Shown here piece after piece: positions 5,442 through 38,198 of a stretch of 64,000 bases of DNA (within the stretch, counting starts at the first letter, position 1; every line of letters begins with the position of its first letter). This DNA comes from Candidatus Vecturithrix granuli. GTDB taxonomy: Bacteria; Moduliflexota; Moduliflexia; Moduliflexales; Moduliflexaceae. The position numbers were made by a program, and so were the translations under genes. The stretch covers positions 268,511 to 332,510 of the forward strand of contig DF820470.1 in the NCBI GenBank assembly GCA_000739535.1, written 5' to 3'. The notes beneath the pieces were generated by a model. It was not told the origin of the DNA. It saw only the letters and a program-made list of their open reading frames with translations, and made no database searches.

Positions 5442-5485
5442 TGTACCGATGGATATCCCTGTCCGTCGGTACAACTATTTTTAAA
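5442..5485 (+). terminator. Candidate terminator of the DUF3798 operon
   Basis: TGTACCGATGGA pairs with TCCGTCGGTACA with one interruption, and the stem is followed by ACTATTTTTAAA. It lies 12 bases after the last permease stop. Confidence 0.6.
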
Positions 5486-5602
5486 GGAGTTCACATGAGC
5501 TAACCGCTCACCCGACATCATGAAAATCAGGCACGTAGTAGCCGCTTCAGCGGCGTGAAGAAACGCTGAAGCGTTTACTACGAACAGGCATTTTCAAAGG
5601 AG
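5483..5602 (+). repeat. Modular leader repeat, copy R1
   Basis: It begins AAAGGAGTTCACATGAG and ends TTTTCAAAGGAG, as in the other copies. The micro-ORF here is only ATGAGCTAA. The middle holds a separate palindrome (5535-5585, GTAGTAGCCGCTTCAGCGG ... CGCTGAAGCGTTTACTAC), apparently inserted in place of the usual hairpin. Its 3' AAAGGAGTT is also the start of copy R2. Confidence 0.65.
5535..5585. repeat. GTAGTAGCCGC...CTACGAAC palindromic repeat
   Basis: Two small stems (GCCGCTTCAGCGGC and AACGCTGAAGCGTT) lie between GTAGTA and TACTAC ends. A second full copy is at 38016-38066, and a half copy lies just upstream of hutU (20752-20778). Confidence 0.65.
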
Positions 5603-5820
5603 TTCATACGAATGGATTATGCGCCCGGTACATCTGAAACTACAAGGATTTGGTGTAGGAAGGATTCTCAGAGGCAGGGTTTAGTGGTACGCCGACAATT
5701 GCCATCAAGAATCCTTCCTACACCAAATCCTTGTAGTTTCAGATGTACCGCGAAATTCCTTTTCGCGGCCATGTCAGGCGTAAGCGCGAAAAGGAATTTC
5801 GCGCTACATTTTCAAAAGAG
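5596..5820 (+). repeat. Modular leader repeat, copy R2 with 43-bp hairpin
   Basis: After AAAGGAGTTCAT and an ATG (5612) comes a perfect inverted repeat with 43-bp arms, 5626-5668 and 5708-5750. The ends contain TGAAACTACAAGG and CCTTGTAGTTTCA. A second palindrome with GCGAAATTCCTTTTCGC-type arms follows (about 5750-5805). The ATG at 5612 opens an 80-codon frame made almost entirely of palindrome, so I do not call it a gene. The hairpin is nearly the same as that of copy R5, with paired base changes. Confidence 0.75.
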
Positions 5821-5927
5821 TTATCATGAGCGGATCGCTCACCCAACGTCATGAAACGACAGGGATTTCACATAACCAGGGATAACAACATCCTTGCTTA
5901 TGAGAAATCCCTGTCGTTTCAAAGGAG
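5814..5927 (+). repeat. Modular leader repeat, copy R3
   Basis: AAAAGAGTTATCATGAGCGG is followed by a 19-codon micro-ORF from 5826 (MSGSLTQRHETTGISHNQG). Next come 18-bp perfect arms TGAAACGACAGGGATTTC (5852-5869) and complement (5904-5921), then AAAGGAG. No gene starts downstream; the next feature is a convergent terminator. Confidence 0.7.
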
Positions 5928-5967
5928 AGTGCTGCGGGGGGAGGCTATCAGGGTTCATATAAAACAG

Positions 5968-6001
5968 TGAAGGGGGTAAAGCTAAGGCTTTACCCCCTTC
6001 A
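5968..6001. terminator. Bidirectional terminator
   Basis: TGAAGGGGGTAAAGC pairs perfectly with GCTTTACCCCCTTCA around a TAAG loop. It lies between the (+) DUF3798 operon and the (-) glycerol-transporter operon, whose last stop is at 6041, so it can end transcription from both sides. Confidence 0.75.
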
Positions 6002-6040
6002 TTCATTTTAACGATAGATACGACGTATGCTACGGTGCAA

Positions 6041-7771
6041 TTATTTCACGCGACCTTCGCGCCAGGCTTGCAGGAGCAGATCGTAGTCAACCGTCTCGCC
6101 TTGCGGTTTTTCATTTTCGAGTTTGGCTTTAGGTGCGCCGGGTTGGTCAAACCAGTAGGATACGTCTTGTTCCGGGTTCAACTTCGGCCCGCATTCCTTC
6201 TGGGTGCCCGAACGTTCGATCCGTTCCATAACCTTATCCATCTCACGCGCCAGGTTGTCCATGGCCACTTGCGGGGTCACTTCACCGGAAATCGCCTCGC
6301 CGATATTCTGCCACCACAACTGCGCCAGTTTTGGATAATCAGGCACGTTCGTTCCGGTCGGCGTCCAGGCGACGCGCGCCGGGCTGCGATAGAACTCCAC
6401 TAACCCGCCGAGTTTGGGGGCACGTTCGGTAAATGATACGTGTCTGATGTCGCTGTCGCGAATCGGTGTCAGGGTCATGTGGGTTTTTTTCAGGGATGTG
6501 GTTTTGCACACGCAGAACTGAGCATAGAGCCATGCGGCCTTGCGGCGTTCGAGCGGCGTACTGGTCATAAACGTCCAGGAACCGCAATCCTGATAGCCCA
6601 GTTTCATCCCCTCTTCCCAATAAGGACCATGGGGGGAAGGCGCCATACGCCATTTCGGTGTGCCGTCTTCGTTGACTGTCGGGCCTGGTTTCACCATGTC
6701 TGGCAAGAAGGCCGTGTACCAGAAAATCTGCTGGGCGACATTGCCATTGGCCAGATAAGGCAGGTAGGTGTAAAAATCCATGCCGAAACCACCTGGAGGT
6801 GCATATTTCTTGAGCCATTCGATGTACTTGGTGAGCGCATACACGGCCGCCGGACCATTGGCGTCGCCGCCGCGCGTCACGCTCGATCCTGCCGGGCTGC
6901 AACCCTCAACCCGGATGCCCCATTCGTCCACCGGTTTGCCATTGGGCAACCCTTTGTCGCCCGCGCCAGCCATGGACAACCAGGCGTCAGTAAAACGCCA
7001 GCCTAAATCCGGGGCTTTTTTGCCGTAGTCGTTGTGACCGTACACGATATTGCCGTCAATCTCTCTGCCCGTGAAAAATTCGGCAATATCTTCATAGGCC
7101 GACCAGTTGACTGGCACGCCTAATTCATAGCCGTACTTTTCCTTGAACTCTGCTTTCAAATCCGGGCGCGTAAACCAATCGTAACGGAACCAGTATAGAT
7201 TAGCAAACTGTTGATCCGGCAGTTGATAAATTTTGCCGTCTGGGCCGGTTGTGAAGGAGATGCCCATGAAATCGTTCACGTCGAGCGTCGGCAGCGTCAC
7301 ATCTTTGCCCTCGCCTTCCCAAAAATCAGATAGGGGTACCACAAATCCGTAACGCATGTGGGTGCCGATGAGATCAGAATCGTTGACCCAACCGTCATAG
7401 ACATTTTGCCCGGAAGCCCACTGGGTTTGCAGCTTTTCGATGACATCCCCTTCCTGAATCAGGTCATGTGTGACTTTGATGCCGGTGATCTCTTCAAAAG
7501 CCTTGGCCAGCACTTTCGACTCATACTCGTGTGTCGCAATGGTCTCGGACACGATCTTGATCTCCATGCCCGCGAAGGGCTTGGCGGCATTGATGAACCA
7601 CTCCATTTCTTTGAGTTGTTCTTCCCTTGTTAAGGTTGATGGTTGAAATTCTTCATCCACCCACTTTTCAGCGGCGGCCATGTCCGCGATTGCAGAGCTT
7701 GCGCCAAACGCGAACAATGTTACCACGGCACTGACCAGAAGCAGCAACCTGGTCCATTTCGTTAACATCAT
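6041..7771 (-). CDS. glpV: Glycerol-type ABC importer, substrate-binding protein GlpV-like
   Basis: A 576-residue family-1 extracellular solute-binding protein, longer than the usual 400-450 but normal for GlpV. A hydrophobic signal sequence (residues 5-29) ends at ASSAIA. Internal marks include ATHEYESKVLAKAFEEITGI and the tryptophan-rich middle. The start has a strong AAGGAGG box. It is the last gene of a set whose order (two ATPases, two permeases, small DUF2160 protein, binding protein) matches the glycerol importer described in rhizobia. Glycerol as substrate is inferred from that order; a related polyol is possible. Confidence 0.82.
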   Translation of the reverse strand: MMLTKWTRLLLLVSAVVTLFAFGASSAIADMAAAEKWVDEEFQPSTLTREEQLKEMEWFINAAKPFAGMEIKIVSETIATHEYESKVLAKAFEEITGIKVTHDLIQEGDVIEKLQTQWASGQNVYDGWVNDSDLIGTHMRYGFVVPLSDFWEGEGKDVTLPTLDVNDFMGISFTTGPDGKIYQLPDQQFANLYWFRYDWFTRPDLKAEFKEKYGYELGVPVNWSAYEDIAEFFTGREIDGNIVYGHNDYGKKAPDLGWRFTDAWLSMAGAGDKGLPNGKPVDEWGIRVEGCSPAGSSVTRGGDANGPAAVYALTKYIEWLKKYAPPGGFGMDFYTYLPYLANGNVAQQIFWYTAFLPDMVKPGPTVNEDGTPKWRMAPSPHGPYWEEGMKLGYQDCGSWTFMTSTPLERRKAAWLYAQFCVCKTTSLKKTHMTLTPIRDSDIRHVSFTERAPKLGGLVEFYRSPARVAWTPTGTNVPDYPKLAQLWWQNIGEAISGEVTPQVAMDNLAREMDKVMERIERSGTQKECGPKLNPEQDVSYWFDQPGAPKAKLENEKPQGETVDYDLLLQAWREGRVK

Positions 7772-7898
7772 AGCTATCCTCCTTATTTACTGGCCTTCGG
7801 TCTTGGTTTACGTATAACTTCTCTGAGCCTCTATCAGCAGCGGGAAGGCCATGACCGCCGCACAACAGAAACCAGAGAAACTTGTTTGACCTCGTCAT

Positions 7899-8198
7899 TT
7901 AGCCCCAGCGCATCACCACACCAATCCAACACAGGGCAATGACAAGCATGATCCACAGCGACAAATCAGTCAATCCAACCCATGCAAAAAAAATATACGC
8001 GCTGCCTAATAATCCGATAAAAAGCCGGTCACCCGGCGTGGTCGGAATCGGCAGGAATCCACGGCGTTCGACAGAGGGCCACTTAGCCTGCCAGATTGTC
8101 ATAACAACCAGGATCAGGAAAATGACAATGAAAAAAATTGCGCTCGGAAGCGTCCACTCCATCCAGGTTAAAAAAGCCACACTCAGCATAAGTTCCAT
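7899..8198 (-). CDS. DUF2160-family small membrane protein of glycerol importer
   Basis: This 99-residue protein has about three hydrophobic segments (IFFIVIFLILVVMTIW, LFIGLLGSAYIFFAWVGL, LWIMLVIALCWIGVVMRW) with WPSVERRGFLPIPTTPGDRL between the first two. This matches the DUF2160 family found between permease and binding-protein genes of GlpSTPQV systems. Its exact role is unknown; an accessory membrane subunit is the usual guess. GGAGTATCATTGT precedes the start. Confidence 0.8.
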   Translation of the reverse strand: MELMLSVAFLTWMEWTLPSAIFFIVIFLILVVMTIWQAKWPSVERRGFLPIPTTPGDRLFIGLLGSAYIFFAWVGLTDLSLWIMLVIALCWIGVVMRWG

Positions 8199-8224
8199 AC
8201 AATGATACTCCTCACACTTCGACT

Positions 8225-8292
8225 CCGCTCAGTGTCCGCGCAGGTCGTCGACCGGTTGTCGAGCGAACCGGTTGTCGAGCAAAGTCGAGACA
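8225..8292. repeat. CGACTTCGCTC-type repeat debris
   Basis: CTTCGACTCCGCTCAGTG is followed by a directly repeated ACCGGTTGTCGAGC (two copies). The short GAGCGAAGTCGA module is the same one used as core by the 12649-type and 29311-type elements. It sits between the DUF2160 and glpQ genes. Confidence 0.45.
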
Positions 8293-8298
8293 TTCGAT

Positions 8299-9102
8299 TT
8301 ATACCCGACCTAACGCAAAGCCTTTGGCCATGTGATTACGTGCAAACCAGATCACCAGCGCCCCAGGAACGATGGTAAGTATCCCGGCAGCAGCCAACAG
8401 GCCATAGTCCAGACCGGTCGCACTGATGGTGCGCGTCATGATGGCTGAGATCGGTTTGGCGTTTGTAACTGTCAAGGTCCGGGCAATCAGCAACTCGACC
8501 CAACTAAACATAAAGCAGAAAAACGCTGTGACGCCAACTCCGGCTCGGATCAACGGGATGTAGATCGTGAGAAAAAATCGCGGAAAACTGTAGCCATCAA
8601 TAAACGCGGTTTCATCAATCTCTCTGGGGATGCCAGACATAAAACCTTCCAGAATCCAGACCGCCAGGGGCACATTGAACAGACAGTGCGCCAGGGCTAC
8701 GGCAATGTGCGTATCCATCAGGCCGACAGAAGAATACAACTGGAAAAAGGGCAGGACGAACACTGCGACCGGCGCCATGCGGTTCGTGAGCAGCCAGAAA
8801 AATACGTGTTTGTCTCCGAGAAACCGATAGCGTGAAAACGCATAGGCCGCTGGCAGAGCTACTACTAAGGAGATCACCGTGTTAATGCTGACATAGATCA
8901 TAGAATTGATGTAACCGGAGTACCAGGATTCATCCGTGAAAATTTTTATGTAGTTGGCCAATGTGATATTTCTGGGGTATAAAACGAAATTACTGAGTAT
9001 GTCGGCGTTGGTGCGCAGGGACATGCCGAACATCCAGTAGATCGGCGCCAGCAGCAGGCCGAAATAGATCAATAAACCAATAGTTCTTTTCTGGATTTTC
9101 AT
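8299..9102 (-). CDS. glpQ: Glycerol-type ABC importer permease GlpQ-like
   Basis: A 267-residue MalG-type permease with six predicted helices. The EAA loop is present as GIPREIDETAFIDGYSFPRFF, slightly altered from EAAxDG in that Thr-Ala replaces Ala-Ala. AAGGAGAGAAAGC precedes the ATG, which overlaps the glpP stop (ATGA). It pairs with the 9099 protein to form the channel. Confidence 0.85.
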   Translation of the reverse strand: MKIQKRTIGLLIYFGLLLAPIYWMFGMSLRTNADILSNFVLYPRNITLANYIKIFTDESWYSGYINSMIYVSINTVISLVVALPAAYAFSRYRFLGDKHVFFWLLTNRMAPVAVFVLPFFQLYSSVGLMDTHIAVALAHCLFNVPLAVWILEGFMSGIPREIDETAFIDGYSFPRFFLTIYIPLIRAGVGVTAFFCFMFSWVELLIARTLTVTNAKPISAIMTRTISATGLDYGLLAAAGILTIVPGALVIWFARNHMAKGFALGRV

Positions 9103-9968
9103 GCTTTCTCTCCTTTTCCAACTCTCTGAAGCGCCTGATAAAACAGATAACAGAACAGTTCGACGATGACAAAGTAGATCAATGAGAACGCCCCGCCCGG
9201 TCCCAGGTCGAATTGTAGGAGGGCAATTTTGACCAGGTAAATAGACAGGAAGGTGGTGGCATTGCCAGGACCACCGCCGGTCAGTACGAAAGGCTCAGCG
9301 TAAATCAAAAAACTATCCATGAAGCGCAGCAGCAAAGCGATAGTGAGGACGCCGCGCATCTTGGGCAACTGGATATACAAGAAGGTGGACCAGGAGGAGG
9401 AACCGTCGATTTTGGCGGCCTGATAATAGGCGTCAGGAATCGCCCGCAGCCCCGCGTATGCCAACAGGGTCACCAGCGGGGTCCAATGCCAGACCTCCAT
9501 CAACATCAGGGTAATCCAGGCATCGAGCGGTCTTGCGGTATGGTCGAATTTGGTGAAATGGTTGATGATCGAGCCGAACAGACCAATGTCCGGGCGTGTA
9601 AAAATAATCCAGATCGTCCCGATCGTATTCCAGGGAATAAGCAGGGGCAACGAAATCGTCACGAGACAGGCGGAGACGCCCCACCCGCGTTTCGGCATCG
9701 CCAGCGCCAGGAGGATGCCGAGCGGCATCTCAATCAACAGCACAAGTCCGGAAAATAGAAGTTGACGCCACAGGGCCTCGTGCAGGCGTTTGTCAGCCAA
9801 CATCTCCTTGTACCATTCGATGCCGACGAAAACGCTCTGTCCAGGCCCCCATATATCCTGGAGCGAATAATTCACCACCGTCATGAGCGGCAGGATTGAA
9901 CTGAACGCGACGATGATAAACACCGGTACCACCAAAAACCAGGCTTTATTGCTTTCCCACTTATCCAT
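9099..9968 (-). CDS. glpP: Glycerol-type ABC importer permease GlpP-like
   Basis: A 289-residue MalF/UgpA-type permease. It starts MDKWESNKAWFLVVPVF and has the EAA loop IPDAYYQAAKIDGSSSWSTF. FVLTGGGPGNATTFLS near the end is typical of this permease class. AGGAG lies 9 bases before the start. A tiny ATG frame of four codons overlaps the start region and is probably meaningless. Confidence 0.85.
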   Translation of the reverse strand: MDKWESNKAWFLVVPVFIIVAFSSILPLMTVVNYSLQDIWGPGQSVFVGIEWYKEMLADKRLHEALWRQLLFSGLVLLIEMPLGILLALAMPKRGWGVSACLVTISLPLLIPWNTIGTIWIIFTRPDIGLFGSIINHFTKFDHTARPLDAWITLMLMEVWHWTPLVTLLAYAGLRAIPDAYYQAAKIDGSSSWSTFLYIQLPKMRGVLTIALLLRFMDSFLIYAEPFVLTGGGPGNATTFLSIYLVKIALLQFDLGPGGAFSLIYFVIVELFCYLFYQALQRVGKGEKA

Positions 9969-10063
9969 CAGTCATAACTCCTGTGCCAATTGCTTAAAAA
10001 TCACGTGGTTTATCAGAATTTTCTCATTACCAGTAATCAATACCCATGAATACCTAATTGGGG

Positions 10064-11152
10064 TTACTTATGCACCAGGCGCCCATCAACAAACAGCTTT
10101 GTCCATTGTTTCGGAAATCGCAGCCAGCCTTGATTCGAGGGCACGGCTTGATCTTCGGGCAAACGGGCGCGCAGCGTATAGCCTGCCATGTTGACCGTCA
10201 CAATTTTGAAACTCCCCTGGTCTTCCACGGAGGTCACGGCGGCTGGAATCCCGTCTTGAATAGATTTACTATGAACTTCCAGGTACATCGGACGAATGCC
10301 GATTTCCATTTTTCCCTGGGCTTTTTGCGCCAATGCCACCGTGTCATCGTCGAGCGTGATATTGGCCCCATCCACCCGGGCGATATTACCCTCCAGGGTA
10401 CATGTTAAAAAATTCATGCCGGGGCTGCCGATAAAAAAGCCGACGAATTTATGCTGCGGATTTTCAAACAGCTCCTGGGGTGTTCCAATCTGGACCAATT
10501 CACCTTCGTACATGACCATGACCTGGTCGGCAAAGGTCAGAGCCTCTGTCTGATCATGAGTCACATAAATTAGAGTCAACTTCAGTTGTTCGTGAATTTC
10601 TTTGAGCTTGCGCCGAAGATGCCACTTCAGATGGGGATCGATCACCGTCAGCGGTTCGTCGAATAAAATAGCCGCCACATCGCTTCTGACCAATCCTCTG
10701 CCCAGAGAGATTTTTTGCTTGGCGTCAGCGGCCAATCCGGCCGCCCGTCGGTGAAGAAAGGGCGTCAAATCCAGAATTTCGGCCACTTCCATGACTCGTT
10801 TTTTCACGTCACTTTCTTCAACCCCCCGATTTCGCAAAGGAAACGCCAGATTATTAAACACCGACATTGTATCGTATAACACCGGGAATTGAAAGACCTG
10901 GGCAATATTTCGTTTTTCTGGGGGCAAATCTGTGACATCCTTGCCATTATATAATACCTGTCCCTGACTGGGTGTGACCAGCCCGGAAATCACATTGAGC
11001 AGGGTCGTTTTCCCGCACCCGGAAGGGCCGAGCAGGGCATACGCGCCGCCGTCATTCCAGGTATTATGAATACGTTTCAGAGCATAATCCGCTTCGCTTT
11101 TGGGCCTTTTTGCATAACTGTGGGCAACTTCCTGTAAATCAATGCGCGCCAT
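10064..11152 (-). CDS. glpT: Glycerol-type ABC importer ATPase GlpT-like
   Basis: A 362-residue MalK/UgpC-type ATPase with an N-terminal nucleotide-binding domain and a C-terminal OB-fold (TOBE) region. Walker A is intact (GPSGCGKTT, about residues 42-50), as are Walker B (AILFDEP) and the switch His (IYVTHDQTEA, H199). The ABC signature is degenerate: AADAKQKISLGRGL stands where LSGGQ should be. The partner GlpS shows the opposite pattern, so the pair should have one consensus and one degenerate ATP site. AGGAG precedes the start, 12 bases after glpS. Confidence 0.85.
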   Translation of the reverse strand: MARIDLQEVAHSYAKRPKSEADYALKRIHNTWNDGGAYALLGPSGCGKTTLLNVISGLVTPSQGQVLYNGKDVTDLPPEKRNIAQVFQFPVLYDTMSVFNNLAFPLRNRGVEESDVKKRVMEVAEILDLTPFLHRRAAGLAADAKQKISLGRGLVRSDVAAILFDEPLTVIDPHLKWHLRRKLKEIHEQLKLTLIYVTHDQTEALTFADQVMVMYEGELVQIGTPQELFENPQHKFVGFFIGSPGMNFLTCTLEGNIARVDGANITLDDDTVALAQKAQGKMEIGIRPMYLEVHSKSIQDGIPAAVTSVEDQGSFKIVTVNMAGYTLRARLPEDQAVPSNQGWLRFPKQWTKLFVDGRLVHK

Positions 11153-11164
11153 ACCGATCTCCTA

Positions 11165-12262
11165 TCATAACGGCTTTTCAAAACTATTTCGGCCGGGTGA
11201 CGCCACTAACACACCCGCTTGATCGAAGACAAAGAAATTACTCGGATTGACATAAATGGAAATTTCCGCGCCCATTTGATGGGGATGTACGCCGTCTTCC
11301 TGGATGACCAGGCGCGAACCATTATACATCACATGAATGAAGGTTTCAGATCCGTTGATTTCCGCCAATTCTACTTTGGTGCGAATTTCAGTGTCTTCGG
11401 CGCTGGCGCGATTCAAAGACAGATGATTGGGGCGGACGCCGAAAATATACTGCGCGGCAGACAGTGATTGCAGATGATTCGTCAAAGGAAATTCGATCTG
11501 TTCCCCTAGAGATGCTGTCCGTTCCCTCACTGTGCAAGGCAGGTAGTTGATAGGTGGGTCGCTGAAGACTTCCGCAACTTTGGTCGTTGCGGGATTGTGA
11601 TATACTTCGGGCGTCGAACCGGTTTGCAGAACCCGTCCTTCGTCAATCACCACAATATTACCTCCCATCATCAACGCCTCGGCCGGTTCAGTGGTGGTAT
11701 AAATAACAATGGCCTCGCGCCGTTTGAAAATTTCCCGCAGCTCAATGCGCAGTTCTTCACGCAATTTATAGTCCAGATTGACCAGGGGTTCATCCAATAG
11801 CAACAACTCAGCGTCTTTTACCAGGGCGCGAGCGATGGCAGTCCGCTGCTGCTGTCCGCCGGAAAGCTCGCTAGGCAAACGATCCAACAAGTTTTCGATA
11901 TGGAGCATTTCTGCGGTTTCGCGAACATGCCGGTCAATGTCGCCTTTGTTCATACCGCTGGTTTTCAGGGGCGAGGCGATGTTGTTATAGACGGTCAGGG
12001 AAGGATAATTGATAAACTGCTGATAGACCATTGCCACACTGCGGTTTCTTACGGAAACGCCCGTCACGTCTTTATCGCCGATAAGAATATTTCCTCGCGT
12101 CGGACGATCAAGGCCGGCCATGATGCGAAGGAGAGATGTTTTACCTGACAGGGTACGGCCTAAAAGTATATTATGCGAGCCAGACTTAAACTCAAGATTC
12201 ACATCTTTGAGATAAGTCTCCTGGTTGACAAGCTTGTGAACATTTTGAAGCACCAGATTCAT
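11165..12262 (-). CDS. glpS: Glycerol-type ABC importer ATPase GlpS-like
   Basis: A 365-residue ATPase. Walker A is unusual (GRTLSGKTS, residues 35-43). The LSGGQQQR signature and Walker B (LLLLDEPLVNLD) are intact, but the switch His is missing: YTTTEPAEA stands where YVTHDxxEA is expected. I chose ATG 12262, with AAAGGG ten bases upstream, over the TTG at 12283. It is the first gene of the (-) operon. Promoter sequences should lie in the AT-rich 12300-12500 region, where a reverse-strand TTGACA sits at 12361-12366. Confidence 0.85.
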   Translation of the reverse strand: MNLVLQNVHKLVNQETYLKDVNLEFKSGSHNILLGRTLSGKTSLLRIMAGLDRPTRGNILIGDKDVTGVSVRNRSVAMVYQQFINYPSLTVYNNIASPLKTSGMNKGDIDRHVRETAEMLHIENLLDRLPSELSGGQQQRTAIARALVKDAELLLLDEPLVNLDYKLREELRIELREIFKRREAIVIYTTTEPAEALMMGGNIVVIDEGRVLQTGSTPEVYHNPATTKVAEVFSDPPINYLPCTVRERTASLGEQIEFPLTNHLQSLSAAQYIFGVRPNHLSLNRASAEDTEIRTKVELAEINGSETFIHVMYNGSRLVIQEDGVHPHQMGAEISIYVNPSNFFVFDQAGVLVASPGRNSFEKPL

Positions 12263-12545
12263 GTCATCTACACCCTTTGCCAATTCCGAGTTTAATCCTA
12301 CGCATTCTAAGAATTGAACATTACATTATGAGAGAGACTCAAAAGATAACTTTATTTTTCTGTCAAGTTTTATTTTAAAAAATACATATTTTATCTATTA
12401 AAAATATTATATAAAAAATTTCTATAAGTTCATATTTTTTTATATTATATTTATTTTGAGAAAAAAACATTAATGATTTTATTTTTCACTTGACAATGTT
12501 TATTGGGCACTGTTTTGTATTTTTGAGGGAAATGTTGAGTAATTT
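12263..12545. other. AT-rich divergent intergenic region
   Basis: This very AT-rich stretch separates the (-) glp operon from the (+) gene at 12890. It holds a reverse TTGACA (12361-12366) facing glpS. It also holds a forward TTGACA (12489-12494) followed 17 bases later by TTTTGT, a poor -10. I see no coding capacity. Confidence 0.5.
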
Positions 12546-12638
12546 AGAGCTACCGGAAAAAACTCCTGACCCCACCCCATCCCTCCCGTAAATTAGAGGA
12601 GGGAGCGAGGGAGGGGTTGTATTTTTTCCGGTAGCTCT
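12546..12638. repeat. Palindromic element with AGAGCTACCGGAAAAAA ends
   Basis: 17-bp perfect terminal arms (12546-12562 and 12622-12638) enclose a C-rich/G-rich stem (CACCCCATCCCTCCC ... GGGAGCGAGGGAGGGG). It lies 10 bp from the transposed element at 12649. I found no second copy with these ends in the window. Confidence 0.6.
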
Positions 12639-12648
12639 TACAACATTA

Positions 12649-12762
12649 GGTAGTGGTTAAATGGTAAGTGATGCCCGCTCGTTGAGCGAAGTCGAAACGA
12701 GCCGCTTATTGTTCCCTTCGACTTCGCTCAGGGAACGCATCACTTACCATTTAACCATTACC
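12649..12762. mobile_element. Non-autonomous transposable element (MITE), family A, with 8-bp target duplication
   Basis: Terminal inverted repeats start GGTAGTGGTTAAATGG and end CCATTTAACCATTACC. The perfect duplication CAACATTA is present at 12641-12648 and 12763-12770. The core contains TCGTTGAGCGAAGTCGAA and CTTCGACTTCGCTCA. It has no coding capacity, so a transposase must act in trans. Confidence 0.85.
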
Positions 12763-12889
12763 CAACATTATTCACCAGGATTGAATATATTCAAAGGAGT
12801 GCCAAAGTTTGTCTTTGGCTGTCAAAGCCACTCCTGTTCTATAGCTAACTCCGCTGCATAATGCTGTAACTACAAGGACCATAAGATTC

Positions 12890-15220: not shown

Positions 15221-15341
15221 AGCATCCCTACTCCTTTTCCTGAAATTCTAAGATGAAGGCCGTCTCAAAGCCTATTATGACAAACTTCGGAGAAGGTCTT
15301 TCCATCTCAAAGAATCTCCTGCTTTGTCAAGGGTTTGACTG

Positions 15342-15400
15342 ACAGGTTCGTAGTTCCGCCTTCAGGCGGGAAACGCGCTAAAACGCGAACTACGAACCCG
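15342..15400. repeat. GTTCGTAGTTCCGCC...GAACTACGAAC palindromic repeat
   Basis: Two small stems (CCGCCTTCAGGCGG and a CGCG...CGCG arm pair) lie between GTTCGTAGTT and AACTACGAAC. Related copies occur at 19714, 27201, 27273 and 45838. Confidence 0.6.
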
Positions 15401-15422
15401 TCAACGATAACTGGAAAGAGTG

Positions 15423-17252: not shown

Positions 17253-17270
17253 ATAACTATAAGAAACTTG

Positions 17271-17384
17271 GGTAGTGGTTAAATAGTAAGTGATGCCCGC
17301 TCGTTGAGCGAAGTCGAAACGAGCCGCTCGCTGTTCCCTTCGACTTCGCTCAGGGAACGCATCATTTACCATTTAACCACTACC
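17271..17384. mobile_element. MITE family A between the two exporter genes
   Basis: It has the same ends as the 12649 copy and lies in the same orientation. Flanks are GAAACTTG (17263-17270) and GAAATTTG (17385-17392), a 7-of-8 target duplication. It separates the two subunit genes of one exporter and supplies a spurious in-frame N-terminal extension to the downstream one. Confidence 0.85.
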
Positions 17385-17397
17385 GAAATTTGTAAGT

Positions 17398-27256: not shown

Positions 27257-27272
27257 AGTTGAAAATTGCCTG

Positions 27273-29247: not shown

Positions 29248-29310
29248 GTAAGCGATCCGTTGTTGTTTTTAAGGTGGCACCTCTCTCCGTGGAGTCCATC
29301 TGAGAGGCCA

Positions 29311-29417
29311 GGCTGTTAAGTTCTGTGGATGTGTGTCATCTCGACTTCGCTCGATGACCGGAACACCGCACGTCGAGCGAAGTCGAGACGGGCATGTTGT
29401 ACAAGAACTTAACAGCC
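29311..29417. repeat. Palindromic element with GGCTGTTAAGTTCT ends, copy 1
   Basis: GGCTGTTAAGTTCT and AGAACTTAACAGCC enclose a CATCTCGACTTCGCTCGATG / CGTCGAGCGAAGTCGAGACG core. Other copies lie at 29524, 35563 and 51679. It is between a binding-protein gene and its permease genes. Confidence 0.7.
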
Positions 29418-29449
29418 CTGCACCTGAGGGGCGGTCTCCACCTGAACAA

Positions 29450-29481
29450 GATGGAGGCCACTTCGGAAAGTGGACTCCATC
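29450..29481. repeat. GATGGAGGCCACTT...CTCCATC hairpin
   Basis: The stem GATGGAGGCCACTT / AAGTGGACTCCATC has the same design as the hairpin at 33886-33916 (read on the other strand), with a paired G-C versus T-A change. Confidence 0.5.
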
Positions 29482-29523
29482 TCGGATATTGAGAATTTAA
29501 CAGCCTTCCCCCATTAAGACGGA

Positions 29524-29620
29524 GGGCTGTTAAGTTCTACAAAATATTGGAGTGCCAAAGCTCTGCTTTGGCAGCGAAAGCAGAGCTTTGGCACTCCGGA
29601 TCGTCGAGAACTTAACAGCC
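29524..29620. repeat. Palindromic element with GGCTGTTAAGTTCT ends, copy 2
   Basis: It has the same ends as 29311 but a different core: a perfect 21-bp inverted repeat (29549-29569 and 29577-29597, GGAGTGCCAAAGCTCTGC...). The family therefore keeps its ends and swaps its centre. Confidence 0.7.
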
Positions 29621-29678
29621 CTGCCATCAAGAGGGAGGGAGTGAACTTGTGCGAGTTGAAAATTTTGGAGGAGATTGA

Positions 29679-31371: not shown

Positions 31372-31372
31372 T

Positions 31373-31466
31373 AAGGAGTTATCATGAGTGGAACGCTCAC
31401 TCGTTACAATGAAACGGGACAGGGCCATTCTTGCTTATTCTTAATTCCTGTAGTTTCATAGGAGGG
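31373..31466 (+). repeat. Modular leader repeat, copy R4, with 25-codon micro-ORF
   Basis: AAGGAGTTATCATGAGTGG opens a micro-ORF at 31384-31461 (starts MSGTLTRYNETGQG, ends PVVS). It is followed by the terminal CCTGTAGTTTCATAGGAGG, which supplies the ribosome site of the aminotransferase gene at 31472. The element fills the whole gap between two operon genes. Confidence 0.7.
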
Positions 31467-31471
31467 GATTT

Positions 31472-32674
31472 ATGCCAGGACCAGGAGCTTATTTAGTAGG
31501 CGAAGAAGAACGACGTGAAGTCGAAGATGTGCTTGAAACGGGGTATGTTTCCAGATACGGAACAGCAGATAATCTGAAGTTTAAGAGAAAAGTTGTCACC
31601 TTAGAACAGGAGTTTGCAAAATATAGCGGCGTGAAGCATTGCGTTGCCCTTAGCGGCGGGACAGGCGCGATCATGGCTGCGCTTGTGGCCCTCGGTGTCG
31701 GGCCTGGGGTGAAAGTCCTTGTGCCAGGCTATACGTTTGTTGCCTCGATCTCAGCCGTTATTTCGGTCGGAGGGCAGCCAATTCTTACGGAGATTGATGA
31801 ATCGTTGACGATGGATCCGCAGGATCTTGAAAAAAAGATCACGAAAGAGACAAAGGTGATTATGCCGGTGCACATGCTTGGGAATCCGTGTGACATGGAT
31901 GCGATCATGGAAGTGGCGAAAAAACACGAACTTCTCGTGCTTGAAGATTGCTGCCAGGCTTTAGGGGCAAGCTATAAAGGCAAGAAAGTCGGTTCTATCG
32001 GAGATATAGGCGCGTTCTCGCTCAATATCAATAAAACGATCACTTGCGGCGATGGCGGTCTGGTGACGACAAATGACCAGCATCTCTACGAACGCGCCTT
32101 TGGTTTTCATGATCAAGGGCATCTGCCGCTGCGGATGGGAGTGGAGATCGGGAAACGCTCATTGATTGGAATTAACTTGCGGCTGAACGAGTTGACCGGC
32201 GCATTTGCTCTGGGGCAGTTGCAGAAACTCGATCATATTTTACAGACGCTCAGAGCGAAAAAAACTCAATTCAAGCATGCGATCCTGGCAGGCGACATAA
32301 AAAATATGACCTTCAGAAAAATCAACGATCCTGATGAATGTCATACGCTCCTGACCGTTCTATTCAAAGATGCCCCGACAGCTCAGCGGGTTGCCGAAAC
32401 CCTCGGCACCACAACGCTTGATCATAGCGGCTGGCATGTGTACAATAATATGGAACAGATTCTGGCCTATACGGATTCAGCAGGCAACAAGCTCTATCAC
32501 AAATATATGCTTCCACAAACCGATGATATTCTCAGTCGGGCAATCAATCTGAGCGTTGGCGTCGTTGATCCGGGGCTTGGGGCGTCTTTTGGGATCAATA
32601 TTCTCTCAAGTCATGCAGAAATCGAAACAACCGCAGAGAAATTTATCCGAATTGTGAAACCTCTTGTGGATTGA
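31472..32674 (+). CDS. DegT/DnrJ/EryC1-family PLP aminotransferase
   Basis: A cytoplasmic enzyme of 400 residues. The cofactor-anchoring Lys lies in SLNINKTITCGDGG (about residue 188), the PLP-phosphate contacts in LSGGTGAIMAAL, and VLEDCCQALGASYKGKKVGS is conserved. Family members transaminate keto-sugars or inosose to amino sugars. It is the last gene of a sugar-import operon, so it may act on the imported sugar or a product of it. The acceptor cannot be read from the sequence. Confidence 0.87.
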   Translation: MPGPGAYLVGEEERREVEDVLETGYVSRYGTADNLKFKRKVVTLEQEFAKYSGVKHCVALSGGTGAIMAALVALGVGPGVKVLVPGYTFVASISAVISVGGQPILTEIDESLTMDPQDLEKKITKETKVIMPVHMLGNPCDMDAIMEVAKKHELLVLEDCCQALGASYKGKKVGSIGDIGAFSLNINKTITCGDGGLVTTNDQHLYERAFGFHDQGHLPLRMGVEIGKRSLIGINLRLNELTGAFALGQLQKLDHILQTLRAKKTQFKHAILAGDIKNMTFRKINDPDECHTLLTVLFKDAPTAQRVAETLGTTTLDHSGWHVYNNMEQILAYTDSAGNKLYHKYMLPQTDDILSRAINLSVGVVDPGLGASFGINILSSHAEIETTAEKFIRIVKPLVD

Positions 32675-32844
32675 TTGCATTCACTCAGGCGGCTTGTATT
32701 GGTCTCTCATTTCCAGCCACAACCTGAGAAATTCCAATAGCTCCAGCAGTCCCGTAACGGTTTTTCGCCCCGAAAGCCTTACGGGCACTTCAAAGATTGA
32801 AGTGATTCCAAAATCGTGTTTCGAATCTCTCCATATAAAACGCG
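32675..32844. other. Non-coding spacer
   Basis: Between the aminotransferase stop and the MITE I see only short stems (for example CTTCAAAGATTGAAG). No promoter or coding signal is convincing. Confidence 0.35.
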
Positions 32845-32955
32845 GGTAGTGGTTAAATGGTAAGTGATGCGTTCCCTGAGCGAAGTCGAAGGGAACGATG
32901 AGCGGCTCGTTTCGATTTCGCTCAACGAGCGGGCATCACTTACTATTCAACCACG
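32845..32955. mobile_element. MITE family A, inverted orientation, degraded right end
   Basis: The left end GGTAGTGGTTAAATGG is intact. The right end CTATTCAACCAC has decayed. The core is in the opposite orientation to the 12649 and 17271 copies (GCGTTCCCTGAGCGAAG first). No target duplication remains. Confidence 0.75.
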
Positions 32956-33104
32956 GACTTGTGATTCTGCCCTATGGCGACAGCCTCTTTTTTTGATGAA
33001 AATCCTTTGACGAAATGAACGGGAAAATGTATAGGGGTGATAGATTTGACTTTGTAAAATAGACTGCGAACAATTTGAACCCGTAAATACAGGCAGGTCG
33101 AACT

Positions 33105-33872
33105 ATGACAGCAACAATGCAAGCATTACTTAAAGAGATTGAAGAAGAGCCAATCTTCCGACAGCGTTTAGCAGAATTGTTGATGAAATCGCCAGATCCT
33201 GTTCGCCAGCCCAGCACCATGACTTATGAAGAATTTTTGGAGTGGGCGGATGAAGATACTCTGGCCGAATGGGTCAATGGAGAAATTATTATGAGTTCAC
33301 CAGCATCGTATTGGCATCAAAATGTGGTTGATTTTTTAGTGACCATGCTACGGATTTATGTCGAAACCAGACAACTTGGCATCATCTGTTCCGCTCCATT
33401 TCAAATGAAACTCAAACCGGCCGGCCGGGAACCGGATGTGATTTTTCTTGCCACACAGCACCTTGATCGCCTCAAAAAAACTTATCTGGATGGCCCGGCT
33501 GATCTGGTAGTCGAAATTGTCTCGCCAGAAAGTGTGGCGCGCGATCGCGGCGAAAAATTTTATGAATACGAAGCTGGCGGAGTTTCCGAATATTGGCTGC
33601 TCGACCCGATCCGCACCTGGGCTGAATTTTATCACCTCAATCAGGAAGGACGATACATCACCGCCTTTGCTGGAAAAGAGGGCGTCTATCAGGCGCTCAC
33701 GATTCCCGGGTTCTGGGTGCGCATCGAGTGGTTCTGGCAAGACCCATTGCCCAAGGCCCTGCCAGCTTTAGCCGAAATTATCGGGCTGGCCCCTGAGGTG
33801 CTTGGATCCCTTCTTACTGCTCTGGGAGGAGGAAACGAAGATAGCAACACACGGAATGAACATCAGCAATAG
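33105..33872 (+). CDS. Uma2-family (DUF820) putative restriction-fold endonuclease
   Basis: 255 residues. The central part has MTYEEFLEWADEDTLAEWVN, GREPDVIFL, LVVEIVSPES and RDRGEKFYEYEAGGVSEYWL, the PD-(D/E)XK core of Uma2 proteins (the Asp of PDV, the Glu of VEIVSPES, then Lys). An N-terminal extension of about 35 residues (MTATMQALLKEIEEEPIFRQ) is helical. These genes are abundant in cyanobacteria and other repeat-rich genomes, and their role is not settled. It is a single gene next to a MITE and unrelated to the transporters around it. Confidence 0.85.
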   Translation: MTATMQALLKEIEEEPIFRQRLAELLMKSPDPVRQPSTMTYEEFLEWADEDTLAEWVNGEIIMSSPASYWHQNVVDFLVTMLRIYVETRQLGIICSAPFQMKLKPAGREPDVIFLATQHLDRLKKTYLDGPADLVVEIVSPESVARDRGEKFYEYEAGGVSEYWLLDPIRTWAEFYHLNQEGRYITAFAGKEGVYQALTIPGFWVRIEWFWQDPLPKALPALAEIIGLAPEVLGSLLTALGGGNEDSNTRNEHQQ

Positions 33873-33885
33873 GAGTCACCGATAC

Positions 33886-33916
33886 GATGTAGTCCACTTT
33901 CAAAGTGGCCTACATC
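33886..33916. repeat. GATGTAGTCCACTTT...CTACATC hairpin
   Basis: GATGTAGTCCACTTT pairs with AAAGTGGCCTACATC with a single internal mismatch. It lies in the leader of the BMP-type importer ATPase gene. A smaller CCCATG/CATGGG stem follows (33926-33950). A sister hairpin is at 29450-29481. Confidence 0.5.
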
Positions 33917-33969
33917 TGACATGCACCCATGAACATTTCATGTACATGGGAGTACGAAGGCAATTGCTT

Positions 33970-35517
33970 ATGACTGAGAACATGACGTTTTTAGCCATGC
34001 AGGGCATTTCAAAATATTTTGCGAAGGTCATCGCGAACGATAAGATTGATATTGATGTAAAATATGGCGAAATTTTAGGCATCTTAGGCGAGAATGGCGC
34101 CGGAAAAACCACGCTGATGAACATTCTCTATGGGTTGTACGCCCCGGATGAAGGCCAAATTGTGATTGATGATCAGCCTGTCTCAATTCATTCTCCCAAA
34201 GATTCCATTCTGCATGGCATCGGCATGGTGCATCAGCATTTTATGCTTGTGCCCACGCATACCGTTGTTGAAAATATTATTTTAGGAATGTCCTCGCAGA
34301 AAGGTCGCTTACGTCTGCGTCAGGCCGCAGAGGAAATTCTCACCCTCTCACAGCAATTAGGCTTTCAGATCGATCCGTTCAGTTATATCCGCGATCTTCC
34401 GGTTGGCACGCAGCAGAAAGTCGAGATTCTCAAGTCAATTTATCGCGGGGCCAAGCTGCTGATTATGGATGAACCCACGGCGGTGCTCACCCCGCAGGAA
34501 ACAGAAGAGATGTTCAAAATCCTGCGTCATTTTACAGGCTCCGGAAATGCGGTCATTTTTATCACCCATAAACTCAATGAAGTCATGGCGATTACGGATC
34601 GGATTACCGTCTTGCGCGACGGCAAGCTGATCGGCACGGTCAAGCGCACTGAAACCACCACCAATGAATTAGCTCGCATGATGGTCGGGCGCGACATTGC
34701 GCTTACCGTGAACAAACATGCGCAGCCGATTTCCGCCGAGATCGGCTTGCGGGTCGAAAATGTCACCGTGCAAAACCAACATCATAAGAATGTGTTACAC
34801 AATCTTTCATTGACAATTCAGCGCGGTGAAATTCTTGGTATCGCCGGCGTGAGCGGCAACGGGCAGGAAGAACTGGCTGAAGTGCTCTCAGGTTTACGAA
34901 AAGTCAGCAGTGGGCATATTTATGTGAAAGGCAGAGAGGTTACCAATCTAAGCGCCAAAGAGATGATCGAACACGGCGTGAGTTTTATCCCTGAAGATCG
35001 CCAGCACACCGGCCTGATTCTGGATATGTCAATTTACGAAAATTTGATGCTCAAAAGCTTTTATCGTACCCCATTCTCCAATCGTCATTTTCTGAACAAA
35101 CAGGCAACGCTGAATCATGCCGCCACGCTGATCGCCAATTACAACATCAAAACCCCGTCTCCGGCAACCAAAGTCAAAAACCTTTCCGGCGGACATCAGC
35201 AAAAAGTGGTTGTCGCCCGCGAGTTGTCATTGGAACCGGAGGTATTAATCGCATTTCAACCGACGCGCGGACTCGACATTGGTGCGATTGAATATGTCCA
35301 TACCCTGATTCTGCAAGCCAGGAATGAGGGCAAATCTGTCTTGTTGATTTCGACCGAACTGTCAGAGATCTTCAGCCTCTCAGATCGGATCGGTGTGCTC
35401 TATCAGGGCGAGATTTTGAAAATTTTTGAGGCAGCCGATGCCACCATTGAAGAAGTTGGGCTCTTAATGGCGGGAGTGAAGGAAAAAACTACAGGAATGA
35501 AGAATAAGAAAGAATAG
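33970..35517 (+). CDS. Nucleoside/BMP-type ABC importer ATPase, two ABC domains
   Basis: 515 residues. Domain 1 has GENGAGKTT, LPVGTQQKVEI, LLIMDEPTAVL and ITHKLNEV. Domain 2 has GVSGNGQEEL (degenerate Walker A, as in the family), LSGGHQQKVV and the distinctive FQPTRGLDIGAIE. The QPTRGLD motif and the two BPD_transp_2 permeases plus BMP protein downstream point to the YufO/PnrCDE-like nucleoside importers. I used ATG 33970; the open frame from 33802 overlaps the Uma2 gene and runs through a hairpin. Confidence 0.87.
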   Translation: MTENMTFLAMQGISKYFAKVIANDKIDIDVKYGEILGILGENGAGKTTLMNILYGLYAPDEGQIVIDDQPVSIHSPKDSILHGIGMVHQHFMLVPTHTVVENIILGMSSQKGRLRLRQAAEEILTLSQQLGFQIDPFSYIRDLPVGTQQKVEILKSIYRGAKLLIMDEPTAVLTPQETEEMFKILRHFTGSGNAVIFITHKLNEVMAITDRITVLRDGKLIGTVKRTETTTNELARMMVGRDIALTVNKHAQPISAEIGLRVENVTVQNQHHKNVLHNLSLTIQRGEILGIAGVSGNGQEELAEVLSGLRKVSSGHIYVKGREVTNLSAKEMIEHGVSFIPEDRQHTGLILDMSIYENLMLKSFYRTPFSNRHFLNKQATLNHAATLIANYNIKTPSPATKVKNLSGGHQQKVVVARELSLEPEVLIAFQPTRGLDIGAIEYVHTLILQARNEGKSVLLISTELSEIFSLSDRIGVLYQGEILKIFEAADATIEEVGLLMAGVKEKTTGMKNKKE

Positions 35518-35529
35518 GATCCCTAAGCC

Positions 35530-35703
35530 CCCCACTCCCATCCCCTCCCCAAAGGAGAGGCCGGGCTGTTAAGTTCTCGCAAAACATAACGTCTCGACTT
35601 CGCTCGACGTGCGATGTTCCGGTCATCGAGCGAAGTCGAGATGACAAACACCCACAGAATTTAACGACCTTGCCTCTCCTTTGGGGAGGGGACGGGGATG
35701 GGG
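35530..35703. repeat. Outer palindrome enclosing a second element
   Basis: 31-base arms (35530-35560 and 35673-35703; C-rich then G-rich, with CCCCAAAGGAGAGG next to the break) pair with three mismatches. The centre is exactly filled by a GGCTGTTAAGTTCT element. It looks like one palindromic element inserted into the loop of another. Confidence 0.6.
35563..35668. repeat. Palindromic element with GGCTGTTAAGTTCT ends, copy 3
   Basis: GGGCTGTTAAGTTCTCG on the left, AGAATTTAACGACC on the right, CGACTTCGCTCGACG / ATCGAGCGAAGTCGAGAT core. It sits between the importer ATPase gene and the first permease gene. Confidence 0.65.
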
Positions 35704-35733
35704 TCATAAGAAAGAAAGTTATTTATATTCACT

Positions 35734-36846
35734 ATGAATATTTTTACACAAATCAAAACCTTTCTTTTGAACAAAGAACACCACACATTCTGGATGTGGA
35801 TCTATCCGGTCGCATCAATTGTCCTGGCCTTTATCTGCGGCGGGTTGATGCTGTTGCTGCTGGATTTGAACCCGATCAGCATTTATCGCACCATGCTGGT
35901 GATGACCTTTAACGATCCCTATTCCATTGGTGAAATCTTTGTCAAATCAATCCCCTTGATGTTAAGCGCGCTCTCTTTTGCCTTTGCGTTTAAAGCGGGC
36001 CTGTTCAATATCGGCGCAGATGGACAATTCTACATGGGGGCTTTAGCGGCGGTGATCGTCTCTTTAAAACTGTCATTCCTCAACCCCGTCGCCATTTTGC
36101 TGATCGCCTTTGTGTTCAGCGTCATTGCCGGCAGTCTTTGGAGTGGGATTTCAGGCTATTTGAAGGCAAAATATAACGCCAATGAAATTATTATCACGAT
36201 CATGCTCAATTACATCGCCTTTCAGATCGTCAATTTCATGGTCAATGGGCCGATTAAAGAACAAATCGGCGCGTATCCGCAGACCGATCCGATTCCGCGT
36301 CACGCGCATCTTCCGATTTTACTTCCGCGTACCAGACTGCATTGGGGCTTGTTATTGGGATTGCTTTTTGTCGCGCTGTTTTATGTGATCCTCATGAAAA
36401 CCACATTAGGCTTTAAAATCCGGGCGGTTGGGTTGAATAGCAACGCCGCCGAATATGGCGGAATTCATACCAAACAGGTCTTAATCATGACTATGTTGCT
36501 TACCGGGATATACGCCGGTGTAGCAGGATTTATCGAAATCAATGGCGTGCAGCATATTTTGATTCAGGGTTTTGCTCCGAATATCGGCGGCGAAGGCACA
36601 ATCATTGCCTTGCTGGCTTATACGAATCCTATCGGTATTGTGATCGCCTCAATCTTTTTTGGGTTTTTAAAGGTTGGCGCAAATATCATTCAACAGACCT
36701 CGAAAGTGCCGACTGATGCTATTACAATGATCGAAGGTTTTGTCGTAATTTTTGTGCTGATTTCCTATTATCTTCAAGCGCAGATGATGCAGCGCCGCAG
36801 TAAACGGCTGATCGCACGTCAGGCGCATCAGAAACAGGGATTATGA
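35734..36846 (+). CDS. Nucleoside/BMP-type ABC importer permease 1
   Basis: 370-residue polytopic protein of the YufP type. GLFNIGADGQFYMGALAA and YNANEIIITIMLNYIAFQIV are landmark segments of this permease family, followed by TTLGFKIRAVGLNSNAAEYG (coupling region). It overlaps the next permease by ATGA. Confidence 0.88.
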   Translation: MNIFTQIKTFLLNKEHHTFWMWIYPVASIVLAFICGGLMLLLLDLNPISIYRTMLVMTFNDPYSIGEIFVKSIPLMLSALSFAFAFKAGLFNIGADGQFYMGALAAVIVSLKLSFLNPVAILLIAFVFSVIAGSLWSGISGYLKAKYNANEIIITIMLNYIAFQIVNFMVNGPIKEQIGAYPQTDPIPRHAHLPILLPRTRLHWGLLLGLLFVALFYVILMKTTLGFKIRAVGLNSNAAEYGGIHTKQVLIMTMLLTGIYAGVAGFIEINGVQHILIQGFAPNIGGEGTIIALLAYTNPIGIVIASIFFGFLKVGANIIQQTSKVPTDAITMIEGFVVIFVLISYYLQAQMMQRRSKRLIARQAHQKQGL

Positions 36847-37763
36847 CCTTTTTTGTCAATTTACTTGCGGCCGGCATAGGGCTTGCCGCCCCGCTTTTAA
36901 TCGCAGCTTTAGGCGAATTATACGCCGAACGTTCAGGCGTGCTGAATATTGGGATCGAAGGTATGATGCTGGCCGGAGCCTGGGGTGGATTTGTTGGGAC
37001 GCACTTTAGCAAAAACCTGGGAATTGGGCTGCTTACCGCGATCCTAATAGGACTGATCCTGGCGCTATTAAATGGTTTGCTCACCATCAGTTTCAAAGTC
37101 AATCAGGTGGTCAGCGGCATTGCGATCAATATTCTCACTGCTGGATTAACCATGTATCTGTACCGCGTCATTTTCGGCATTCCGCTGCTGCCAATTACAA
37201 TCAAACCCTTTCAAAAAATTTCGATTCCGCTGCTCTCGAAACTCCCATATCTTGGAGATATTTTCTTTAATCATAACCTGATGGTCTATCTGGCCTTTCT
37301 GCTGGTTCCGGTCGCGTATTATGTGTTGTATAAAACCTCCTTTGGTCTGGAAATTCGATCGGTGGGCGAAAAACCGGAAGTAGTAGATTCAGCCGGCTTG
37401 AATGTCTTTCGCATGCGCTATATCGGGATGTTGATTGGCGGCGTGATGGCCGGATTGGCCGGCGCTTTTTATTCGTTAGCGTATTTGAACATGTTTAGCA
37501 ATAATATCATCAGCGGACGCGGCTTTATCGCCTTTTCCGCGGTAATTTTCGGCGGCTGGCATCCATTCAGAATTATGATGGCGACTTTGATTTTCGGTAT
37601 TGCCGATGCGCTGTCAACGCGGGTGCTCACCGCTGGAATCAAGCTGATTCCGTATGAATTACTGTTGGCCTTGCCCTATATTGTGACGATTATCGCCACC
37701 TTATTGCTCAGCCGCCGATCCGTCGCGCCAGCCTCATTAGGCGTGCCGTATCAAAAAGAATAA
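36843..37763 (+). CDS. Nucleoside/BMP-type ABC importer permease 2
   Basis: 306-residue YufQ-type permease. ERSGVLNIGIEGMMLAGAWG, VNQVVSGIAINILTAGLTMY and TSFGLEIRSVGEKPEVVDSA are diagnostic. Together with the 35734 protein it forms the inner-membrane channel. The start codon overlaps the upstream stop, so the two subunits should be made in equal amounts. Confidence 0.88.
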   Translation: MTFFVNLLAAGIGLAAPLLIAALGELYAERSGVLNIGIEGMMLAGAWGGFVGTHFSKNLGIGLLTAILIGLILALLNGLLTISFKVNQVVSGIAINILTAGLTMYLYRVIFGIPLLPITIKPFQKISIPLLSKLPYLGDIFFNHNLMVYLAFLLVPVAYYVLYKTSFGLEIRSVGEKPEVVDSAGLNVFRMRYIGMLIGGVMAGLAGAFYSLAYLNMFSNNIISGRGFIAFSAVIFGGWHPFRIMMATLIFGIADALSTRVLTAGIKLIPYELLLALPYIVTIIATLLLSRRSVAPASLGVPYQKE

Positions 37764-37794
37764 AGTTCAACGTTTCCGCTTTAACAGGTAAGAC

Positions 37795-37947
37795 AGGGGA
37801 GTTGTCATGAGTGTGTACTCACCAGGCACAATGAAACTACAAGGATTTTGTGTAGGAAGGATTCTCAGAGGCAGGGTTCGGTGTCACGCCGACCAATTCG
37901 CCGCCAGGAATCCTTCCTACACAAAATCCTTGTAGTTTCAAAGGAGG
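37795..37947 (+). repeat. Modular leader repeat, copy R5 with 33-bp perfect hairpin
   Basis: GGGGAGTTGTCATGAG opens a 42-codon micro-ORF (37807-37935, begins MSVYSPGTMKLQGF) that runs through the hairpin. Arms are 37832-37864 and 37908-37940 (TGAAACTACAAGGATTTTG...). The 3' end is AAAGGAGG. Compared with copy R2 (5626-5750), the stem differs by paired changes that keep it perfect. Confidence 0.75.
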
Positions 37948-38012
37948 TGGTGTGTAGGAAAAATTGGAGAAAAGAGATATTTAAGTTGTTAACAATGACA
38001 TATAAACAGCAG

Positions 38013-38066
38013 TTCGTAGTAGCCGCTTTAGCGGCTTTATAAAACGCTGAAGCGTTTACTACAAAC
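38013..38066. repeat. GTAGTAGCCGC...ACTACAAAC palindromic repeat, copy 2
   Basis: TTCGTAGTAGCCGCTTTAGC then AACGCTGAAGCGTTTACTAC. It matches 5535-5585 and lies between modular repeats R5 and R6. Confidence 0.6.
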
Positions 38067-38076
38067 AATAATTTGC

Positions 38077-38198
38077 AGAGAAGTTCACGTGAATGGGTTA
38101 TTCGCCCGGTATCATGAAACGACAAGAAGGGCGATAAGCAAGAATATGCCTGAAATCGAATTCTTGCTTATTCTTCATTCCTGGAGTTTCAGAGGAGA
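38077..38198 (+). repeat. Modular leader repeat, copy R6, supplying the BMP gene ribosome site
   Basis: AGAGAAGTTCACGTGAATGG begins it. ATAAGCAAGAAT (38134-38145) pairs with ATTCTTGCTTAT (38160-38171). GGAGTTTCAGAGGAG ends it and provides the Shine-Dalgarno of the gene at 38206. A GTG at 38089 reads in frame through the whole element into that gene. Confidence 0.65.

Follow-up and report, generated by a model that had tools for sequence, protein, structure and literature searches.

Repeats bounded by Shine–Dalgarno sites in Candidatus Vecturithrix granuli: a probable non-autonomous mobile element of operon junctions

Introduction

A stretch of 64,000 nt from Candidatus Vecturithrix granuli (contig DF820470.1, positions 268,511 to 332,510; hereafter the window) carries, inside transport operons, copies of a repeat that begins and ends with a Shine–Dalgarno (SD) site. 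Is this repeat a mobile element that can be accommodated between operon genes, or a translational leader of the genes that follow it? A preliminary description listed six copies composed of an SD site, a start codon opening a micro-ORF, a hairpin and a second SD site, and offered both readings.

Several known repeats provide the background: GTAG-tagged REPs and their RAYTs (PMC3733652, PMC3116915), MITEs tolerated in operons (PMC10969869), pneumococcal BOX elements that form ORFs (PMC3049150) and TAACTGA repeats near start codons (PMC4679880). In the part of the literature covered here, we found no repeat described as bounded by SD sites, and the accessible part of the KSB3 genome paper (PMC4312070) contained no mention of such repeats that we could find. 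The assignment of the host to KSB3/Modulibacteria follows from its closest named relative, the KSB3 isolate DOLJORAL78, to whose E1beta the host protein is 80% identical.

Results

Six copies share a frame and differ in their central palindrome

All six copies of the preliminary description were recovered by a covariance model for which 30 copies of the 5' module had served as input (Table 1). An Rfam search at gathering thresholds gave no match at these copies, and a known riboswitch or sRNA was rejected on that basis.

Table 1. Copies of the element and associated features in the window
Feature	Coordinates	Strand	Remarks
Element copy 1 (119 nt)	5484..5602	+	5' AAGGAG, mini-hairpin, GTAGTAGCCGC-type palindrome; fold z -4.4
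Element copy 2 (224 nt)	5597..5820	+	diverged 5' module TACGAATGGATTATGCG
Element copy 3 (113 nt)	5815..5927	+	3' AAAGGAG; fold z -8.4
Element copy 4 (92 nt)	31373..31464	+	degenerate hairpin; fold z -0.97
DegT/DnrJ/EryC1 aminotransferase gene, 3' of copy 4	31472..32674	+	PF01041, 7.6e-80
Element copy 5 (151 nt)	37796..37946	+	GTAGGAAGGATTC-type palindrome; 3' AAAGGAG
Free palindrome of GTAGTAGCCGC type, lacking a 5' module; lies between copies 5 and 6	38015..38069	+	
Element copy 6 (120 nt)	38078..38197	+	module variant TGAAT..ATTCG
Bmp (PnrA-like) ABC substrate-binding protein gene, 3' of copy 6	38206..39183	+	PF02608, 1.3e-57

The frame runs in the order NAGGAG – TTNNC – mini-hairpin with ATG – ACCCGACGCA – ATGAAA (palindrome) TTTCA – NAGGAG, the conserved ACCCGACGCAATGAAA following the mini-hairpin in each copy, and the total length is typically 111 to 151 nt. 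The mini-hairpin, ATGAGC-loop-GCTCA, has a 5-bp stem that is paired in 96-99% of cells and shows compensatory changes. A second type of 5' module, TTCATTCGTTTTGGCAAACGCACCACGGCGAATGAA, occupies the equivalent position in 15 matches. The shared plan of SD site, start codon, hairpin and SD site was correctly described, but the TGAAAC(T/G)ACA...TGTAGTTTCA hairpin that had been given as part of it is just one of several interchangeable palindromes. At least eight unrelated palindrome families fill the centre of one frame: a REPIN pair, which is the commonest (92 copies), and seven others. About half of the copies contain cargo A, GATGTA(G/C)CGCGAAACTCCAGTTTCGCG ... GCGAAACTGGAGTTTCGCGCTACAT, in which the GTAG tag is often GTAC. 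Cargo A has the two inverted palindromes with GTAG-like tags that define a REPIN; the whole element is not a REP pair, as the 41-nt 5' module and the SD ends lie outside it. Nor does the element have the terminal inverted repeats of a MITE, since its ends are direct NAGGAG repeats and the TGAAA/TTTCA inverted repeat is internal to the frame. On the left, the flank has the consensus TTTYA-NAGGAG, which is similar to the right end, and its TTTYA is unlike ordinary SD context. Some TTTCA-NAGGAG hairpins stand before genes with no 5' module.

Copies 1 to 3 form a chain with shared AAGGAG ends, as claimed; direct reading gave TTTTCA-AAGGAG as the end common to copies 1 and 2, and TTTTCA-AAAGAG as that common to copies 2 and 3. 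Copy 1 departs from the form first described: TGAAAAT...ATTTTCA encloses the GTAGTAGCCGC palindrome. Copy 2 contains a perfect hairpin with 43-bp arms (5626-5668/5708-5750), followed by a GCGAAATTCC-type hairpin. The chain does not lead into a gene: no gene start follows copy 3, and the next gene (6041-7771) is convergent, on the - strand. Two other copies end as the ribosome sites of the genes to which they had been assigned. The 5' AAGGAG of copy 4 lies 1 nt past the stop codon of the upstream permease, and its 3' TAGGAG is the SD of the aminotransferase gene (ATG 31472); the 3' GAGGAG of copy 6 is the SD of the Bmp-family gene (ATG 38206). Copy 5 has the 5' module variant TGAGT..ACTCA, a compensatory change, and no gene start directly 3' of its AAAGGAG.

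The window contains further repeats. Members of a separate, dispersed inverted-repeat family, GGTAGTGGTTAAATGGTAAGTGATGC ..., lie at 12632-12765, 17254-17387, 32845-32959 and 63040-63154 (115-134 nt, 90-96% alike), and GGTAGTGGTTAAATGGTAAGTGATGC-related sequences are nested within the SD-hairpin element at two other loci, L153 (near 8710) and L109 (near 10068). Another repeat family, the palindrome TCTCGACTTCGCTCGA...TCGAGCGAAGTCGAGA adjoining GGGCTGTTAAGTTCT repeats, occurs at 29339-29388, 35592-35641 and 51722-51771 and is also frequent in the part of the genome that was fetched, where 66 arms were counted. Rfam assigned two inverted matches, ~90 nt apart, to Acido-Lenti-1 (51419-51464 on the - strand, 42.6 bits; 51556-51601 on the + strand, 39.5 bits), a family that may itself be a palindromic repeat in this host. 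A direct repeat of 300 nt, 76% identical (41427-41726 and 43588-43887), lies in the adjacent ORFs 41438-43522 and 43545-45815, which suggests tandem paralogues.

The element is abundant in the host and was not detected elsewhere

The covariance model matched at least 150 places in the 8.38 Mb and 21 contigs of the host genome, and a matrix scan of the 1.93 Mb that was fetched found 192 distinct copies, 43 of which are chained through a shared AGGAG. The genome has 33 exact matches to AAGGAGTTNNCATGAG and none to its reversed control; for TTTCANAGGAG the counts are 292 and 14. The copies are spread over 17 contigs of a genome that is rated 10.75% contaminated.

We found no match in 58 other genomes. 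Phage and plasmid searches, with one copy as query in each, also gave none, and neither did an exact-pattern search of genome and viral contig collections, from which records near the host genome were possibly excluded.

The 3' end lies preferentially at gene starts

We scored a copy as lying at a gene start when an ATG opening at least 80 codons stood 4-13 nt past its last AGGAG, and restricted the count to terminal copies, those that end an array (n=122). The start fell within these limits in 74 of the 122, mostly at a spacing of 6-9 nt, compared with 469 of 15,520 random non-genic positions (3.0%), 328 of 1,353 generic non-genic AGGAG sites (24%; Fisher 6e-16 against the terminal copies) and 0/122 on the opposite strand. 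When the distance was instead counted from the TTTCA end, which avoids assuming an SD, a start lay within 18 nt in 75/134 cases, but in only 4/137 for five other palindromic repeats of the host genome. The next gene was co-directional for 150/187 copies (p 2e-17). All gene-context figures depend on gene calls by a simple, unpublished in-house codon-usage caller.

Gene starts are thus strongly preferred, but they are not obligatory, because about one third of the terminal copies, among them the window array 5484-5927, lack a clear downstream start and 37/187 copies face a gene on the opposite strand. Copies end at start codons far more often than in any control, and the random placement that the preliminary description named as evidence against its reading is seen in part only.

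Relatives have empty sites, and dispersed copies share a sharp right boundary

Three junctions were compared with relatives, E1beta-E2 and pyrD-pyrF by sequence and an M16 peptidase pair from match coordinates. In the KSB3 relative, the E1beta-E2 junction consists of a stop codon, a few bases, GAGGAG and ATG (~30 nt), and it is equally short in two other lineages (L170/L171); the host junction measures ~290 nt and holds two chained copies and a remnant. The pyrD and pyrF genes overlap by 4 nt in the relative G001, where the SD is absent, while in the host they are separated by an insert of the element family, which supplies the only SD. For the M16 pair the gap, as estimated from match coordinates, is 213 nt in the host; in G001 it is ~28 nt, and in G002 and G003 it is 86 nt. 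Across these comparisons, the insert is absent at three operon junctions in relatives. A search for further empty sites in 789 kb of G001 yielded only a single pair, weak and probably paralogous.

The boundary of the repeated unit was marked by copies that are nearly identical but have unrelated flanks. Identity falls from 0.97 to 0.35 immediately past the 3' AGGAG, and to the left of such copies the TTTYA preference alone is retained. Descent analysis found strong linkage through the palindrome to the right end, weak linkage in the 5' module and, at the left NAGGAG, no signal above expectation, so the left site may derive either from the target or from the element. Empty sites, exact 3' ends and the preference for gene starts lend good support to the earlier suggestion that the element can insert between operon genes while restoring translation.

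Agreement between N1 and N2, which would be expected of a target-site duplication, was found in 25 cases against 19.6 expected for unchained copies (p 0.07), with p 0.19 for all copies. Neither value is significant.

No reading frame of the micro-ORF is conserved

Of 150 aligned copies, 140 retain the ATG, two bases of which lie within the stem. The reading frame that it opens is a two-codon ORF with a stop at codon 3 in 39/161 copies, about a quarter. A stop at the 3' SD occurs in frame 0 in 38/161 and in frame 2 in 27/161, so frame 0 is not clearly favoured, and in the second type of module ATT often takes the place of ATG. Given all this, a conserved peptide is unlikely. The micro-ORF is not conserved as a reading frame; a leader peptide or translational attenuator was rejected on the codon-3 stops and the unconserved frame and length, which, together with the ATT of the second module type, contradict the micro-ORF part of the translational-leader reading. 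The module ATG may instead be a non-productive ribosome landing site.

Frame and cargo have evolved largely independently

Identity of the module and identity of the cargo were nearly uncorrelated (rho 0.075), which indicates that frame and cargo were exchanged or moved independently. The hairpin cargo and the SD-bearing frame evolve largely independently. Since their histories are largely separate, the frame may be an older structure that receives palindromes rather than one transposing unit. Transposition of the whole element as the only route is weakened by the same value.

A RAYT-like gene lies on contig C13 near 26.4 kb (locus L168, 1000-2000; NF047646, 73.6 bits, below the cut-off of 80). 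Multiple CGCGAACCTCCCGGTTCGCG REPs, which are of a sister type to cargo A but not identical to it, lie on either side of the gene and are likely to form a REPtron with it. The 1.93 Mb that was fetched contains no exact match to these CGCGAACCTCCCGGTTCGCG REPs. Since the RAYT-like gene is flanked by REPs of a sister type, action of a RAYT on the cargo is plausible. The host genome also has 12 Y1 transposase matches; within their 1.5-kb flanks, none lies between element ends, and we rejected an autonomous IS200/IS605-type IS with the element's ends. At another locus (L161, 1501-1705), an IS200-type transposase gene fragment is cut off directly at a GAAATCCTTGTAGTT cargo-repeat sequence.

Discussion

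We favour, with rather better than even confidence, the interpretation that these copies are a dispersed non-autonomous mobile repeat of the REPIN/MITE kind, whose ends are SD sites and which thereby makes insertion into operons tolerable. The element consists of a fixed frame with an SD at both ends and an interchangeable palindromic cargo. In a copy between two operon genes, the 3' AGGAG stands at a normal distance from the next start codon, and translation downstream would thereby be kept or re-supplied; with an SD at each end, most copies would still allow translation of the following gene to start. Head-to-tail copies share AGGAG ends. In this interpretation the frame itself would transpose, its SD ends would be the reason why insertion is tolerable, and IS200-like single-strand chemistry, by a RAYT or a relative, would be involved. 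A bolder version, which we put forward tentatively and think somewhat less likely to be right than wrong, is that the element is SD-targeting as well as SD-carrying DNA: it would integrate at ribosome-binding sites, re-supply the displaced gene with such a site, stack head to tail, and offer unrelated REPINs and palindromes a place to land.

The nearest known system is REPIN/REP with RAYT (TnpA-REP), as far as PMC3116915 and PMC3733652 were covered. The commonest cargo is likewise a pair of inverted short palindromes tagged GTAG/GTAC, a RAYT-like gene with sister-type REPs is present in the genome, and the copies are extragenic, clustered and often in operons. Unlike a REPIN, the cargo here is embedded in a larger frame that adds a 41-nt 5' module and SD ends. 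That frame also takes at least seven other families of palindrome, and in those sources we found no description of placement at gene starts. The element is short, non-coding, repeated, intergenic and tolerated in operons, like MITEs, Chunjie, ERIC and BOX/RUP/SPRITE, and modular like BOX (PMC10969869, PMC3049150, in part), but its ends are direct AGGAG sites at start codons, without terminal inverted repeats or a significant target-site duplication. The TAACTGA repeats of Beggiatoaceae (PMC4679880, in part) are also concentrated directly 5' of start codons in one orientation; they are heptamer tandems that mostly replace the SD, whereas the element described here is structured, ~90-150 nt long, and supplies it. 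Rickettsia palindromic elements (PMC10969869, in part) resemble it in being tolerated because host-gene expression is kept, but insert in frame inside ORFs, while the present element is intergenic and has ribosome-binding sites of its own.

Could the copies be ordinary intercistronic REPINs and other palindromes that inserted just 5' of host SD sites, the 5' frame being a remnant of earlier insertions? The REPIN cargo and the RAYT gene of cognate type, the decoupling of frame and cargo, and the TTTCA-NAGGAG hairpins that precede genes without a 5' module are all consistent with this explanation. We nevertheless consider it unlikely: the 41-nt module is a repeat in its own right, with 192 copies and a covarying stem, the pyrD-pyrF SD is present in the host and absent in the relative, other host palindromes are not sited at SDs, and the left-flank TTTYA differs from the usual SD context.

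A cis-acting translational or mRNA-processing element, in which a decoy ribosome site and a hairpin insulate the downstream SD and which is kept by selection and not by mobility, would account for the strong strand bias, the fixed SD-to-start spacing and the conserved ATG and mini-hairpin. The 3' SD is also more accessible on average than with shuffled interiors (mean 0.53 vs 0.38). We regard this as improbable, given eight unrelated hairpins at one position, an unconserved micro-ORF, absence of the element from all relatives tested, about a third of terminal copies away from gene starts, and downstream proteins that on inspection had no evident theme of gene function. Site-specific insertion at an AGGAG cleavage site by an integrase-like or IS200/IS605-like enzyme, with arrays sharing ends, is very doubtful, for although chained copies share AGGAG, the left flank resembles the right end and the genome has Y1 transposase matches, no such enzyme gene lies inside element ends and the duplication signal is not significant.

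If the copies are indeed mobile repeats with SD ends, they would illustrate a concrete route by which repeats accumulate in operons without silencing downstream genes, namely by bringing or restoring a ribosome-binding site. Nearly 200 natural copies with swappable hairpins would provide material on how intercistronic hairpins and decoy starts affect translation, and the system may be a tractable case for learning how REPIN populations find tolerated sites.
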